This document shows positions 19,367-36,283 of a DNA stretch of 36,408 bases, piece by piece. The stretch's first letter is position 1. Every line of letters starts with the position of its first letter. Position numbers and translations under genes: made by a program. This DNA is from Candidatus Cloacimonadota bacterium (lineage in GTDB: Bacteria > Cloacimonadota > Cloacimonadia > Cloacimonadales > TCS61): the NCBI GenBank assembly GCA_021734245.1, contig JAIPJH010000019.1:1-36408 (forward strand), read 5' to 3'. Under the pieces are notes generated by a model. That model did no database searches. It was not told the DNA's origin and worked only from the letters and a program-made list of their open reading frames with translations.

Positions 19367-19645
19367 ATGAAGTATTATAATTGGGACAATGAAAAGAATC
19401 GGATTTTAAAAGAAGATAGAAATATTTCTTTTGAAGAAATAATTTTTCAAATTTTGAATGATGGTTTGATAGAAATTATTGAACATACTAATAATGAGAA
19501 GTATGCTGGTCAGAAAATTTATATTGTTAAGCACAAAGATTATGTTTATTTAGTACCTTTTGTAGAAAGAGATAATGAGTTGTTTTTGAAAACAATATTT
19601 CCCAGTAGGAAATATACAAAGAAGTATTTAGGAGATAGCAAATGA
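19367..19645 (+). CDS. BrnT-like toxin of a type II toxin-antitoxin pair
   Basis: A 92-aa protein. The opening Y-Y-N-W-D-N-E-K-N and the following helix ISFEEIIFQI match the BrnT pattern (W-D-x-x-K-N, then S-F-E-E). Strands with KIYIVKHKDYVYLVPFV and the basic end S-R-K-Y-T-K-K-Y follow. BrnT-type toxins are RelE-like ribonucleases that block translation. The toxin-first order and the immediately following ribbon-helix-helix-like protein, overlapping by four bases (ATGA), fit BrnT-BrnA. A DUF4258-type or Cloacimonadota-specific toxin is an alternative. The residues needed for catalysis cannot be confirmed by eye. The gene sits between rsmD and cysS. Confidence 0.6.
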   Translation: MKYYNWDNEKNRILKEDRNISFEEIIFQILNDGLIEIIEHTNNEKYAGQKIYIVKHKDYVYLVPFVERDNELFLKTIFPSRKYTKKYLGDSK

Positions 19646-19914
19646 CTAAATTAAATAAAGAAGAAATGGAAATTCTCCAATCAATTGAAAATGGTGACTG
19701 GAATAGAGTAAAAAATTTAGATAATGAGAAGAAGAAAGCCAAGAAATATGCTGAAGCTACATTTAAAAAGGATAAAAGGATTAATATCAGGATCTCGGAA
19801 AAAGATCTCGCATCTATACAAATGAAAGCTTTAGAAGAAGGTCTTCCCTATCAAACTCTAATTGCAAGTATTTTACATAAATACATTACAGGTAGGTTAG
19901 TAGGTAGAAAATGA
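19642..19914 (+). CDS. Ribbon-helix-helix antitoxin (BrnA/CopG-like)
   Basis: A 90-aa protein with an acidic, Lys-rich N-terminus. The C-terminal DNA-binding core at about 47-85 reads K-R-I-N-I-R-I-S-E-K-D-L then A-L-E-E-G-L-P-Y-Q-T-L-I-A-S-I-L-H-K-Y. That is the beta strand plus two helices of ribbon-helix-helix antitoxins, with the typical G-x-P-Y-Q-T-L turn. It should neutralise the 92-aa toxin and repress the operon. Its TGA stop overlaps the ATG of cysS, so in this genome cysteinyl-tRNA synthetase is translationally linked to an antitoxin. Confidence 0.7.
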   Translation: MTKLNKEEMEILQSIENGDWNRVKNLDNEKKKAKKYAEATFKKDKRINIRISEKDLASIQMKALEEGLPYQTLIASILHKYITGRLVGRK

Positions 19915-21284
19915 AAATTTATAATACATTAACACGTAAGAAAGAAGAATTTGTGCCGGTTACTCCTGGCAAAGTTAAGATATATCTCTGTGGTCCGACA
20001 GTTTATAATTACTTCCATATTGGCAACGGACGTACGTTTCTGTTTTTTGATGTTGTGCGAAAATATTTTTCTTACAAAGGTTATGATGTAACCTATGTAC
20101 AAAATATCACAGACATTGATGATAAATTGATCGAGCAATCCCAAAAGGAAAACGTGCCGGTTGCCAGGATCGCTGAAAAATATATTAAAGCTTTTCTGGC
20201 TGATACTTCAGCTATCGGAATTTCTCCGGCCGATCACAATCCCAGAGCTACTGAATATATTGGCCAGATGATCGGAATGATCAAGGAATTGGAAGAAAAG
20301 GGATTTGCCTACGAAGCAGGTGGCGATGTTTATTATTCTATCGAAGCAGATAAAACTTATGGCGAGCTTTCCGGCAAGAAGATCGCAGATCTGCAGGCTG
20401 GAGCGCGCGTGGAAGCCAATACCCAGAAAAAACATCCGGGAGATTTTACCTTGTGGAAAAAAGCCAAACCGGGCGAACCTAAATGGAAGAGTCCCTGGGG
20501 CGAAGGACGTCCTGGCTGGCACACCGAATGTGTGGTGATGTCCCGCAAACTTCTGGGAGAAACTTTCGATATTCACGGCGGCGCTATCGATCTGATCTTC
20601 CCGCATCACGAAAATGAGATTGCTCAAGCCCGTGGTTCTGGCGGCTGCATTCACGCCAAATACTGGATGCATGGCGGATTTTTGAATATTACCGGGGAAA
20701 AGATGTCCAAAAGCCTGGATAACTTTTTCCTGACCCGCGACGTGCTGAAAAAATATGATGCGGAAGCGATCCGTTTCTTCTTTCTTTCCAAACATTATCG
20801 CAGTTCCATAGATTACAATGAAGTTATCCTCAAGGAATCCGAGCAGGCTGTGAAGAATTTTTATAATGCCTTGAAAAGAATTGATTATTTATCATTCAAA
20901 GATGAAACACCCGAATATAATGAAGATCAGCAAAAGATGAAAGAAACTTTCATTAATGCGATGGATGATGATTTTAATACAGCAATTGCCATTTCTGTTC
21001 TGTTCGAAGCTGCCAGGAAAACCAGAAATTCAGATGATAAGAATTATGCTCATCTGCTGGTGGAGCTGGGCAGTGTTCTGGGCTTTTTCTCAGATTTAGA
21101 AAGTAAGCTAAAAGATAATGTTGATTCCATCTCAAACGATCTGATCCAGCTCTTGATCGATTATCGCAACAGGTTTAAAAAGGATAAGAACTGGGCTATG
21201 GCAGATGCAATTCGAGATGATCTGAAGAAGTTGGGAATTCAGCTTAAAGATACAGCAAATGGCACTGAATGGGAGATTAAGTAG
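19911..21284 (+). CDS. cysS: Cysteine--tRNA ligase
   Basis: A 457-aa class I aminoacyl-tRNA synthetase of normal length that charges tRNA-Cys. Zinc ligand C27 lies in LCGPTVYN. The HIGH motif is H-I-G-N (36-39). Further landmarks are WHTECVVMS, GGAIDLIFPHHENEIAQ and KMSKS (264-268). The C-terminal helical domain has KDKNWAMADAIRDDL and ends EWEIK. The start overlaps the antitoxin stop by four bases, with only a weak GTAGG ahead. It is intact. Decayed copies of its last codons lie 1.7 and 2.0 kb downstream, beyond the AbiE-like pair. Confidence 0.96.
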   Translation: MKIYNTLTRKKEEFVPVTPGKVKIYLCGPTVYNYFHIGNGRTFLFFDVVRKYFSYKGYDVTYVQNITDIDDKLIEQSQKENVPVARIAEKYIKAFLADTSAIGISPADHNPRATEYIGQMIGMIKELEEKGFAYEAGGDVYYSIEADKTYGELSGKKIADLQAGARVEANTQKKHPGDFTLWKKAKPGEPKWKSPWGEGRPGWHTECVVMSRKLLGETFDIHGGAIDLIFPHHENEIAQARGSGGCIHAKYWMHGGFLNITGEKMSKSLDNFFLTRDVLKKYDAEAIRFFFLSKHYRSSIDYNEVILKESEQAVKNFYNALKRIDYLSFKDETPEYNEDQQKMKETFINAMDDDFNTAIAISVLFEAARKTRNSDDKNYAHLLVELGSVLGFFSDLESKLKDNVDSISNDLIQLLIDYRNRFKKDKNWAMADAIRDDLKKLGIQLKDTANGTEWEIK

Positions 21285-21302
21285 GATCATACTTCATTTT
21301 TG

Positions 21303-21322
21303 AGATGATCATAAAATCATCT
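21303..21322. terminator. Hairpin between convergent cysS and AbiEii-like gene
   Basis: AGATGAT (21303-21309) pairs with ATCATCT (21316-21322) around a six-base loop. No strong T-run follows on either side, so it is a weak terminator candidate. It lies right at the proposed cysS insertion boundary. Confidence 0.35.
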
Positions 21323-21347
21323 TATCTACACTCAAAATTAAAAGTAT

Positions 21348-22250
21348 TTACTCCAACCATTTTAATTGATAACAATCCCATGACTTAATTTTTTCTTCAG
21401 ATAATGCCGGTTCAATAAATAACTGAATAAAATCGAGACAATCTCTAAACTCAATATCTAATTCAATATTGTTTTTCAGTTGAAATGCTTTCCATTGTTT
21501 ATTTTTTTCGAGATTTTGCTTAAAATCATTTGAAAAGATAATGGACTTTTCTTTAAGTTCAGTATTACGATTTGAAAAGGTTGTGTTAATTGCTTCTGAT
21601 AAGATTTTAGAGTTAAAGGAGAAATTATGCGCCATATGGTAGATATCATAAAAATCTTTCATTCTACTGTTGGCATAACCAAGCTTTACCATTGCTTCGA
21701 ATTTCTCTGCAATTGCAGTTTCTGGAGTATAAGCAACAAGAGTAGGAACTGGCATGTCTGCAAGTAAAACTGGAAACTCTAACATTATCGGTTCTGGTAC
21801 AATTTGGTCTCCGAAACCGATATCAAAGTGAAACCTTGATCTGGCCTGTTCAAGAGTAGCTTCGCAATGTATTCGCACACCTTTATATTCTGCCTTTTCA
21901 GTTATATCTTCTGCTGTAATTTTTCTAATATCAAATTGAACTCCATCATCAACTTCTATACTTAGTATCTCTTTCATAGTTTTGGTGAGGTTTTCTTTTG
22001 TATTGTCGGTATTCATTCCCAGGAAATCAATATCTTTTGTAAGACGTGTAGGTGGTAAGTCATAAATAAGGAAAAGCAATGCTCCCTTTAAAATAAAATT
22101 CAATTTATAAGAAGAAATTGATAGCCTGTATAACATTCTCTCTTGAAAATATTGTAACAATACTGCATTGAAGTTTCTGCTATTTTCTTTAGCAATTCTC
22201 AACAGTCTTGCTCTTGCAGATGCAGCTATGTTTTTAGTTTGTTTTGTCAT
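21348..22250 (-). CDS. AbiEii-like nucleotidyltransferase toxin
   Basis: A 300-aa protein of the AbiEii/AbiGii family, DNA polymerase beta-type nucleotidyltransferases that act as the toxic half of a bicistronic type IV-like toxin-antitoxin or abortive-infection module. The nucleotide-binding start is FILKGALLF (about 52-60). The metal-binding pair is D73 and D75 in RLTKDIDFLG, and a third acidic strand is FHFDIGFGD. Family signatures AYTPETAIAEKFEAMV and RMKDFYDIYHM follow. One base separates it from the upstream gene's stop, so the two are co-transcribed and probably coupled. Related enzymes modify tRNA; the substrate here is unknown. Confidence 0.85.
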   Translation of the reverse strand: MTKQTKNIAASARARLLRIAKENSRNFNAVLLQYFQERMLYRLSISSYKLNFILKGALLFLIYDLPPTRLTKDIDFLGMNTDNTKENLTKTMKEILSIEVDDGVQFDIRKITAEDITEKAEYKGVRIHCEATLEQARSRFHFDIGFGDQIVPEPIMLEFPVLLADMPVPTLVAYTPETAIAEKFEAMVKLGYANSRMKDFYDIYHMAHNFSFNSKILSEAINTTFSNRNTELKEKSIIFSNDFKQNLEKNKQWKAFQLKNNIELDIEFRDCLDFIQLFIEPALSEEKIKSWDCYQLKWLE

Positions 22251-22251
22251 T

Positions 22252-22842
22252 CTATACCATTGCTTTTATATATGGATGGAGAATTGTTTTAACTTTGCAT
22301 CTAATGGCATAATCCCAGAGTTTATTTATGTTAGCGCTTTCTTTTCCCAGGTAATTTTTCAGTCCTTCCAGGGCAATATCTTCGCCCAGTTTATTGCGAT
22401 AACGAAACAGATCACAGATCGTTTTTTCGGCATTGTAGATCTTAAAGTTACCAGATACCACTTGAACTTCATCAATGCCAAGATTGTATAGTGATTCGGA
22501 AAAATAATACACTTTGATGGGTGGATATTCAAGTTTAAATTTATCAGTATTCATGGGAACAGCAACAGATATTACACTTGGATTGATTGTTGATAGCTCA
22601 TAATATGCAATTGCAGATGTAAGGCAAATTACAGCGCTGTCTTTGGCTTGGGAAATACCGATAAAACTGCTGTTTTCATCCCAGGGATAATCAACCAGCT
22701 TATAAAGACCAGGTTTAACTTTTTCGACAATTCTGTTTTCTACAGCCTGGGCAATCTTCCTGGTATGAATACCCTGGTTTTTTAGCTCTTTCATCCTGGC
22801 ATAACCATGATTAGCTTCAAAGATCTGTTTCAGTTTTTCCAC
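22252..22842 (-). CDS. AbiEi-like antitoxin
   Basis: A protein of about 196 aa with an N-terminal winged-helix segment (KLKQIFEANHGYARMKEL and G-I-H-T-R-K-I). The following strand IVEKVKPGLYKLVDY is typical of AbiEi antitoxins, which repress the operon and neutralise AbiEii. I prefer the GTG at 22842, preceded by AGAGG five bases upstream, since the usual N-terminus then starts at once; a TTG at 22866 would add eight residues. The C-terminal part has the D-L-F-R-Y-R pattern of the antitoxin C-domain. Gene order, antitoxin then toxin on the minus strand, matches known AbiE pairs. Confidence 0.8.
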   Translation of the reverse strand: MEKLKQIFEANHGYARMKELKNQGIHTRKIAQAVENRIVEKVKPGLYKLVDYPWDENSSFIGISQAKDSAVICLTSAIAYYELSTINPSVISVAVPMNTDKFKLEYPPIKVYYFSESLYNLGIDEVQVVSGNFKIYNAEKTICDLFRYRNKLGEDIALEGLKNYLGKESANINKLWDYAIRCKVKTILHPYIKAMV

Positions 22843-22961
22843 TTTCACCTCTTGGCTCGTTATCAAGGTAATTAAAGCCTATCTACCTTGCAAAAGTACC
22901 AATTCAATAATTATGATGTTTTTGTAAAGCGATTTTATTTATAATAAGGAATTGTGACTCA

Positions 22962-23030
22962 CATGATATTTCTAAAAACTGAAAATTCAACTAAAAAAAC
23001 TCAAGTGGAGCTGAATGGGAGATGGAGTAG
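22962..23030 (+). pseudogene. Decayed copy A of the cysS 3' end
   Basis: This stretch matches the last codons of cysS. In frame at 22976-23002 it encodes K-L-K-I-Q-L-K-K-T against K-L-G-I-Q-L-K-D-T of cysS. After a two-base deletion it encodes G-A-E-W-E-M-E-stop (23007-23030) against G-T-E-W-E-I-K-stop. It is on the same strand as cysS and lies just outside the AbiE-like pair, about 1.75 kb downstream of the intact gene end. Confidence 0.65.
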
Positions 23031-23080
23031 AATTTAACTACTGATGAACGCGGAATTGTGTTAAACGAATTGGTTTAAGC

Positions 23081-23143
23081 AGATATTTTTCTATGTTTCG
23101 TAAAAAATACCCAGGTAATTTATGGGTTTTGGAAAAAATATCT
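23081..23143. repeat. Interrupted inverted repeat between the two cysS relics
   Basis: AGATATTTTTC (23081-23091) pairs with GAAAAAATATCT (23132-23143) with one bulged base. A smaller ACCCA/TGGGT pair lies inside. The rest of 22867-23320 shows no gene. The repeat could be the end structure of a lost element or a folded RNA. Confidence 0.35.
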
Positions 23144-23210
23144 ATCCTGATAATACTCAGCTGTAATATCGATTTTGATTAATCTGGGTGTATGATTCTT
23201 TTATGCGCTT

Positions 23211-23276
23211 CAAAAAGATAAGAACTGGGCCATGGCAGAATCTATTCGAGATGATTTCAAGAACCTAAAAATTCAG
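23211..23276 (+). pseudogene. Decayed copy B of the cysS 3' region
   Basis: Here 51 of 63 bases (23214-23276, my hand count) match cysS 21180-21242. The encoded segment is KDKNWAMAESIRDDFKNLKI against KDKNWAMADAIRDDLKKLGI, in one uninterrupted frame. Upstream of 23211 the similarity stops. Copies A and B both carry K where cysS has G in L-G-I-Q, so they may derive from one diverged version of the gene tail. Confidence 0.7.
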
Positions 23277-26072: not shown

Positions 26073-26123
26073 GCCTTTCCGACAGCTTCTATGGAGAATT
26101 CCTGAGTAAGCTGTCGGAAAGGC
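26073..26123. repeat. Perfect 16-bp inverted repeat
   Basis: GCCTTTCCGACAGCTT (26073-26088) and AAGCTGTCGGAAAGGC (26108-26123) are exact reverse complements separated by 19 bases. It begins just downstream of the stop of the decayed sorting tail. It may be that gene's original terminator, which is better preserved than the gene itself, or a dispersed palindromic repeat. Confidence 0.6.
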
Positions 26124-34520: not shown

Positions 34521-34663
34521 AACCGAATTCAATTTTCACAAAAAACAAACCTTATTTGGCATCAAAAATGCAGAATTAAATTGACGTGGAAATTTAAAAT
34601 GCATTCTTTGAAATGATAGCATATAATTATTCAAGGAAGTAGAATGTGAATATTGGGGAAAAA

Positions 34664-36283
34664 ATGGATAAGTTTGAAATAATTTGTACTATAATTATAA
34701 TTGTTATAATTCTTTCAGTTATTTTGGTTCCTGAATTAAACTTATTTAAAAATGAATATAATCTGCAAAAAAGCTTCTGTGCTGAAAACATAGCTCAATA
34801 TTCTGTCTTAAAATCCGGAAAAGTATTCGATTTGTATTTGGCACATAAAGGAGATCAACGATGTACTGATCTATATCTTATTAATCTCGATGGCAGTCAT
34901 ATGAATCAATTGGAAATACAAGAATTCTCTTTATATTGCACAACTGTTGATGATTACTTTAAAAGCTTTTATGATGAGGAAGAAAATAAAATATATACCT
35001 TAGCTACAAAAAATAGAGCTGATTATTATCTCTTGGAATTCGACACTGAAGATACCTTAATTAATCATAAGTTTTACTTTTTATACCATGATGATCTCTA
35101 TGATAAACTTCAAAACAAATCAATCGAAATAACAGGCATAAATTTCACAGGTTTCAATACAAGTGAATCTTTACCAGATTCCGTTAAAGTCATTAAAGAA
35201 AATAACAATTGTAAAATCATTATGAAGAAATCTCTTTTTAGAGAATTACTAAAAAAATCTCATTTGAATTTTTGCAACTTTCCTTTAAGTAAGCGAATCA
35301 GCAAATTGATTGGCACAAATCTAAAATGTGAATTCATTCCTGAGAATCTATTTGAGTTAATACATTTCTTCTCTCGAAATAGTTATTATGGAAATCATCG
35401 TTTGAATAATTCAAAAAAAATGAATACGGGCTTTTTAATTGGAGATATTTTAGCAAGAATCGATATTAATGATGATGGAACAAAAGAATTCCTTATTCAA
35501 ATTTCAGGCGATAGATGGTTGCCATCCAAACTTGTTTGCTTTGATAAAAAGCAAAATAAAATACTTTGGGAACGAGATTTCTGTGGATTTATAAAAAACT
35601 TTAAATTAATTGATATTAACCATGACAATAAGAAAGAAATAGTAGCATCAACTTATGCACCAAGAAATCAAACTCCTATTGATTATTTCGAAAAAGATTA
35701 CTTTAATTCCACTTTATATAGCAGTTTGTTTATTCTCAATCAAAATGGTAGATTAATACAAAGCAACAATGAACCTTTAATTGTACATTCGGAACAAGGA
35801 TATTATTTTCATAAATTCATAAAACTTCCGAATAAGAAGGAAATTATATTCGGTCTTTCCTCGAAACATGATAATTCCACAAAAAATCTTGAATTGTGGA
35901 ATCTGGAAAAGAATGAAATTTCTGAATTAGCAATTGACTATAATAACTTGTTGTCTATCGATATTGAAAAAAAAGATATTATTATTATTGATAGAATCAA
36001 AGATGCAATTGAAAGAAAAAGATATTCTTCCAACTATAAATTAGTAGATAAAAAAATATATAATACAGAATCTCAACAAGATTTCGAATATCATTTAGGA
36101 GAAATTGATGGAACAAAAGTTTCTTTATCTAGTTATCCAAATATTCTTTTAGATGATAGTTTAAAAAAACTTGTAGAAATTGATGAATTTATGCATCAAC
36201 CTAAAATAATAAATAATAAACTTTTTTTTATAAGAAAGGACGATCATTTATCAACCTTGATGAAAATTGAAGGCTCTTTTTAG
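34664..36283 (+). CDS. Membrane-anchored FG-GAP/VCBS-like propeller protein, probably truncated by an IS
   Basis: A protein of about 539 aa with an N-terminal anchor (about 5-25, IICTIIIIVIILSVILVPEL). The extracytoplasmic part has two clear FG-GAP/VCBS-type loops, A-R-I-D-I-N-D-D-G-T-K-E-F-L-I-Q and L-I-D-I-N-H-D-N-K-K-E-I-V-A-S. Flanking beta blades such as SSLFILNQNGRL and NLELWNLEKNEI resemble the sensor part of membrane histidine kinases in this lineage. No kinase or effector domain follows. The last codons (E-G-S-F-stop) lie inside what looks like the terminal repeat of an insertion sequence, so the original C-terminus may be lost. I use the ATG at 34664 (GGGG five bases before); a GTG at 34646 with AAGGAAG upstream would add six residues. 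It is AT-rich compared with its neighbours. Confidence 0.6.
   Translation: MDKFEIICTIIIIVIILSVILVPELNLFKNEYNLQKSFCAENIAQYSVLKSGKVFDLYLAHKGDQRCTDLYLINLDGSHMNQLEIQEFSLYCTTVDDYFKSFYDEEENKIYTLATKNRADYYLLEFDTEDTLINHKFYFLYHDDLYDKLQNKSIEITGINFTGFNTSESLPDSVKVIKENNNCKIIMKKSLFRELLKKSHLNFCNFPLSKRISKLIGTNLKCEFIPENLFELIHFFSRNSYYGNHRLNNSKKMNTGFLIGDILARIDINDDGTKEFLIQISGDRWLPSKLVCFDKKQNKILWERDFCGFIKNFKLIDINHDNKKEIVASTYAPRNQTPIDYFEKDYFNSTLYSSLFILNQNGRLIQSNNEPLIVHSEQGYYFHKFIKLPNKKEIIFGLSSKHDNSTKNLELWNLEKNEISELAIDYNNLLSIDIEKKDIIIIDRIKDAIERKRYSSNYKLVDKKIYNTESQQDFEYHLGEIDGTKVSLSSYPNILLDDSLKKLVEIDEFMHQPKIINNKLFFIRKDDHLSTLMKIEGSF

Follow-up and report, generated by a model that had tools for sequence, protein, structure and literature searches.

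The question raised by this locus is why the DNA behind cysS carries pieces of that gene's own 3′ end, with unrelated genes in between. We analyzed a window of 36,408 nucleotides (the whole stretch, whose coordinates are used below) from a Candidatus Cloacimonadota bacterium of genus g1 (G000), together with the sister species G002 of the same genus and a second genus with displaced cysS ends, g13 (G042 and G044, with G043 and G045). The following features of the window are relevant.

19911–21284, plus strand: cysS, the target gene, intact and single-copy, 457 aa (Pfam tRNA-synt_1e/DALR_2).
21216–21242, plus strand: cysS codons 436–444 (GATGATCTGAAGAAGTTGGGAATTCAG), a block common to the tails, with near-identical copies in g1.
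21348–22250, minus strand: AbiEii toxin-like nucleotidyltransferase, present cargo (PF08843, E 7e-45).
22252–22866, minus strand: AbiEi antitoxin-like partner (PF13338, AbiEi_4, E 2e-4, below the curated cut-off).
22962–23030, plus strand: copy A, degraded cysS tail, 3′ part (codons ~436–457 and stop; reliable from ~22984).
23090–23183, plus strand: DUF4143/AAA ATPase unit surviving as a remnant (its last ~10 codons, ...SCNIDFD-stop, and upstream flank), with a match to G002.
23205–23276, plus strand: copy B, degraded cysS tail, 5′ part (codons ~421–444; 55/68, E 4e-12).

Copies A and B are genuine relics of the cysS end. When searched within the window, copy B (23209–23276) was identical to cysS (21175–21242) at 55 of 68 positions; the 51 of 63 bases over 23214–23276 given in the preliminary description were reproduced exactly, and copy B was also recovered in genome-wide searches. 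It runs from codon ~421 to codon 444 with a 1-base deletion and lacks the final 13 codons. Copy A by itself matched cysS weakly in the window (40/52 with two gaps, E 0.006), and its end matched tail 2 of G002 at 90% over 31 bp (E 4e-5). Its earlier assignment to the very last cysS codons holds for the end (GAATGGGAGATGGAGTAG; GAA TGG GAG ATG GAG TAG, EWEME-stop) and for homology beginning at codon ~436, but the left part of 22962–23030 is only doubtfully cysS. As previously noticed, K replaces G in both copies (L-K-I-Q vs. L-G-I-Q in intact cysS). The 180-bp scrap between the copies, left unnamed before, is partly the ATPase remnant: 33 bp at 91% (E 4e-6) matched G002, the 54-nt alignment of the last ATPase codons with those of the second G002 ATPase was not equaled in any of 1000 shuffles, and by eye the scrap also resembles part of the upstream flank of that gene. 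The unit reduced to a remnant in G000 is intact in G002, as its second DUF4143 ATPase.

The two relics had been counted as two tails and hence as at least two events, and this count is not secure. Copies A and B overlap by ~27 bp only, together cover about the span of one tail, and in the overlap have five derived substitutions in common (CTG to TTC, TTG to CTx, GGA to AAA) that neither the intact cysS genes nor the tails of genus g1 have (P ~6e-4 in a simple simulation). The small overlap and the common derived substitutions suggest that A and B may be one tail rather than the product of two events. Possibly a single old, decayed tail was split, its halves now standing in permuted order; alternatively, gene conversion may have homogenized two tails. 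G000 by itself is thus a weaker basis for counting events, and the argument for repeated insertion is carried by G002 and g13.

On its other side, cysS is directly preceded by a BrnT/CopG-type toxin-antitoxin pair (window 19367–19914), so that toxin-antitoxin genes border it on both sides in G000. G002 has this pair at the same position (69–79% identity), and tblastn did not find it in the other relatives' cysS loci that were fetched. No tRNA or Rfam target was found within the window. A hairpin at 26073–26123 (CCTTTCCGACAGCTT...AAGCTGTCGGAAAGG) is one member of a palindromic repeat dispersed in G000, and 0.86 Mb of that genome holds four or more further copies. The gene at 34646–36283 belongs to a protein family of ~550–870 aa that is very patchy in relatives. 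A distant homolog lies directly behind cysS in G018; this adjacency was rejected as evidence, because identity is only 21–23% and homologs are scattered elsewhere.

The AbiEi/AbiEii pair is as previously described: an AbiEii domain with an adjoining AbiEi gene, the latter with a match below the curated cut-off. In this respect the present cargo resembles AbiE type IV toxin-antitoxin systems (PF08843/PF13338), but here the pair is ordinary cargo and AbiE does not explain the tails. G002 does not support the proposal that the AbiE pair left the relics: it has no AbiE behind cysS, but tails are found at the corresponding position, and the ATPase that is a remnant in G000 is an intact gene there. 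A relative of this kind had been named in the preliminary description as refuting evidence; here it counts against the AbiE reading while favoring cysS as a point of recurrent insertion. The array is thus most likely older than, and independent of, the AbiE pair, which is the current occupant of the slot next to cysS.

The cysS gene of G002 is 87% identical to that of G000, and two additional tails lie 1.5 and 4.2 kb behind it. The order is cysS, a DUF4143/AAA ATPase on the strand opposite to cysS, tail 2, a HEPN/MNT pair, a second DUF4143 ATPase, tail 3 and tdk (identified by eye, from its sequence and synteny). Tail 2 (codons 425–457) is 90% identical to its own cysS over 101 bp, and tail 3 (codons 432–457) 84% over 75 bp; the better preserved tail is the one nearest cysS. 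The slot next to cysS holds the ATPase in G002 and the AbiE pair in G000. Since the second ATPase of G002 is represented by a remnant in G000, the older ATPase unit and its tail most likely existed before the two species split, the ATPase having been lost in G000. A DUF4143 ATPase, whole or as a remnant, is also found upstream of tdk in G000 and G001, and the corresponding place in G002 is taken by a DUF4143 ATPase together with a cysS tail (L179:5414-6598, L180:315-500, L032:2070-3439). Such ATPases seem to go along with sites of rearrangement.

The 27-bp block of codons 436–444 shows 0–1 mismatch among G000 cysS, G002 cysS and both G002 tails, and no further near copy was found elsewhere in the G000 or G002 genomes. 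It is a possible crossover zone. A foreign origin of the present G000 cysS end was considered and rejected, its synonymous identity to G002 being no different from that of the gene body.

A comparison of cysS downstream regions, suggested in the preliminary description, revealed both other cargo (G002 and g13) and, in most relatives, an insert-free arrangement. The usual cysS neighbors in the family and order are tRNA-Thr, -Tyr, -Gly and -Thr, followed by tuf in G044, where the contig is long enough. In genus g1 this tRNA cluster lies behind lepA, on a contig other than that of cysS. Early contig ends after cysS were dismissed as a sign of variability, because most fall at or just past the tRNA cluster.

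Within g13, G043 and G045 have the plain cysS-tRNA arrangement, whereas in G042 and G044 the tRNAs are preceded by a displaced tail of ~108 codons, from codon ~350. An open frame is kept in this tail (L142:1342-1760, L144:480-900), and in G044 every invariant residue is kept. An RND transporter just upstream of the tail is whole in G042, with only its end left in G044, where a type I restriction (RM) and AbiE island fills the gap between cysS and the RND remnant; in G042, cysS and the tail are on two contigs. Genus g13 is an independent case of insertion behind cysS. In one 30-bp window, the G042 tail is 97% identical to its own cysS vs. 73% to the G044 tail. This block looks as if it was overwritten by the G042 cysS, resembling gene conversion, so homologous recombination appears to be active here. 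The g13 tails group beside g13 cysS in a weakly supported tree. Codons 1–359 of cysS of G042–G044 group with genus g9 and codons 360–457, with weak support, with G041/G045 (g13 cysS loci L143–L148), which suggests a mosaic cysS gene.

Among 125 genomes of the class surveyed for displaced cysS tails, 107 had a match, and tails were present in four of these, confined to g1 and g13; G065 and G090 had a second full-domain cysS match on other contigs. As a background, the last 150 bases of 553 genes (0.86 Mb of G000) were sought within 6 kb downstream. A copy was found for six genes in total; apart from cysS, at least one of these (window 6515) reflects a repeat shared by neighboring paralogs. Gene-end copies are therefore rare in G000, and the pair formed by copies A and B is not background.

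These data show that the array behind cysS in G000 is real, inherited and decayed. An intact gene, displaced 3′ ends and foreign genes between them were found together in the window, in G002 and in G044, and across two contigs in G042. The sequence comparisons support the view that the DNA behind cysS is a site of repeated cargo insertion leaving tails. The earlier claim that the cysS 3′ end is an integration site thus stands as recurrent insertion, on the G002 and g13 tails; its site-specific part is unproven, with no integrase found and no crossover point constant between the genera.

We give an even chance to a decayed accretion array, built by gene-restoring insertions of integrase type at the cysS 3′ end. 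Each unit would leave cysS intact and displace a shorter copy of the gene end to a downstream position. The g1 ancestor would already have had a DUF4143-type ATPase unit between cysS and a displaced tail; later, G002 would have gained another (ATPase) unit, and the slot next to cysS in G000 would have been filled by the AbiE pair. The older ATPase unit of G000 would have been deleted to a ~100-bp remnant, and the tail broken and rearranged into A and B. We infer, rather than observe, the inserting enzyme, which would be a gene-restoring integrase type since lost or supplied in trans. Afterwards, the array may have been reshuffled as cysS and the tails underwent homologous recombination.

Accretion is favored because (i) the pieces are short, come without exception from the 3′ end, and lie behind an intact gene with foreign genes interposed, a pattern characteristic of gene-restoring integration, as at Dehalococcoides ssrA (PMC3146451) and in ICE/CIME tandems (PMC5704250); (ii) G002 has two tails with different cargo and shares the ATPase remnant; (iii) g13 is an independent case; (iv) the left limits of the g1 tails fall within ~45 bp (codons 421–436); (v) the G002 tail nearest cysS is better preserved; and (vi) nearby gene-end copies are rare in G000. 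Several results count against it. Aligning the tails to place the crossover, as had been advised, recovered the 436–444 block in all g1 tails, but the left limits varied (codons ~350 in g13, and 421, 425, 432 and 436). No integrase was found in the window, as already stated in the preliminary description, or in any related unit of G002 and g13; the tyrosine recombinases of the G000 genome are on other contigs. Sequences common to unit ends or to the DNA after the tails were not significant, except for the ATPase remnant; a short motif common to the regions after G002 cysS and tail 2 looks like a dispersed repeat. The rarity of tails in the class also counts against accretion. No carrier of the cysS tail as an attachment site was recognized among the annotated viral, phage and plasmid matches: a viral locus (L200) was rejected because it holds a whole cysS, the annotated plasmid matches are cysS genes, and the phage matches to the tail are unannotated.

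The main rival is homology-directed insertion with no dedicated enzyme, which we regard as possible, if somewhat unlikely. DNA from a congener, carrying cysS and other downstream genes, would recombine in cysS at one end, and the other end would join illegitimately; as a variant, a short cysS piece would let the DNA enter in the form of a small circle. Part of the old gene end would be left in either case. The variable left limits, the absence of an integrase, the origin of the tails from close relatives (the weakly supported g13 grouping and the invariant residues kept in G044), and the exchange between cysS and tail in G042 speak for it, as does a ComEA-like HhH protein seen by eye near the cysS region. 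Other bacteria provide documented cases of one-sided insertion (PMC3240628). Random joints, however, should leave long cysS pieces too, whereas all pieces come from the last quarter of the gene, and most from the last 37 codons.

Local duplication and rearrangement alone, in which tandem duplication or strand slippage copied the cysS end and the cargo came in later by separate routes, is improbable. Copies A and B do resemble halves of one tail, and one other gene of the 553 tested, a long one, has a perfect 46-bp copy of its end 135 bp past the stop codon (L206/L226, G000:C6, about 20340-20385). Against this, three tail-cargo junctions in two genera have foreign genes exactly between cysS and tail, and tail 2 of G002 is young, its reading frame still present. 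A full second cysS gene, decayed in G000, would account for homology at two places, but it is hardly credible: no other part of cysS lies between or around the fragments, whole foreign genes lie between the G002 tails, and a search of the whole G000 genome found only the one intact cysS, and hence not the second full gene named earlier as an objection.

An accretion array at cysS would have known counterparts. The classic ICE/CIME accretion case is fda of Streptococcus thermophilus. In ICE/IME-CIME tandems, decayed units without integration genes are stacked at a gene end (PMC5704250); the stacking is alike, and the cysS tails would correspond to old attachment sites, but no intact related element or att pair is demonstrated at cysS. 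Dehalococcoides ssrA islands lie in tandem behind an essential single-copy gene, with gene 3′-end copies as boundaries; their repeat is uniformly 20 bp long, and an integration module including a serine recombinase is present in sixteen of the islands (PMC3146451). They are similar in that many tandem units have no integration genes of their own, and they differ in target, whereas the cysS repeats are varied and no recombinase accompanies them.

Literature searches did not find cysS as an integration target. It is conceivable, although doubtful, that undescribed, very small integrase-less units, consisting of toxin-antitoxin or DUF4143 ATPase genes and a cysS tail, target cysS in some Cloacimonadota. 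If so, such units would insert or swap through the cysS end via a host or trans-acting recombinase, and cargo would cycle in one slot behind an essential gene. The locus offers a known genomic architecture in a new place, an essential protein-coding gene, and in a poorly studied phylum. With G002, it records how occupants followed one another (ATPase, HEPN/MNT, AbiE), and in g13 the gene end and its copy appear to recombine, so that the scars reveal the order of insertion.
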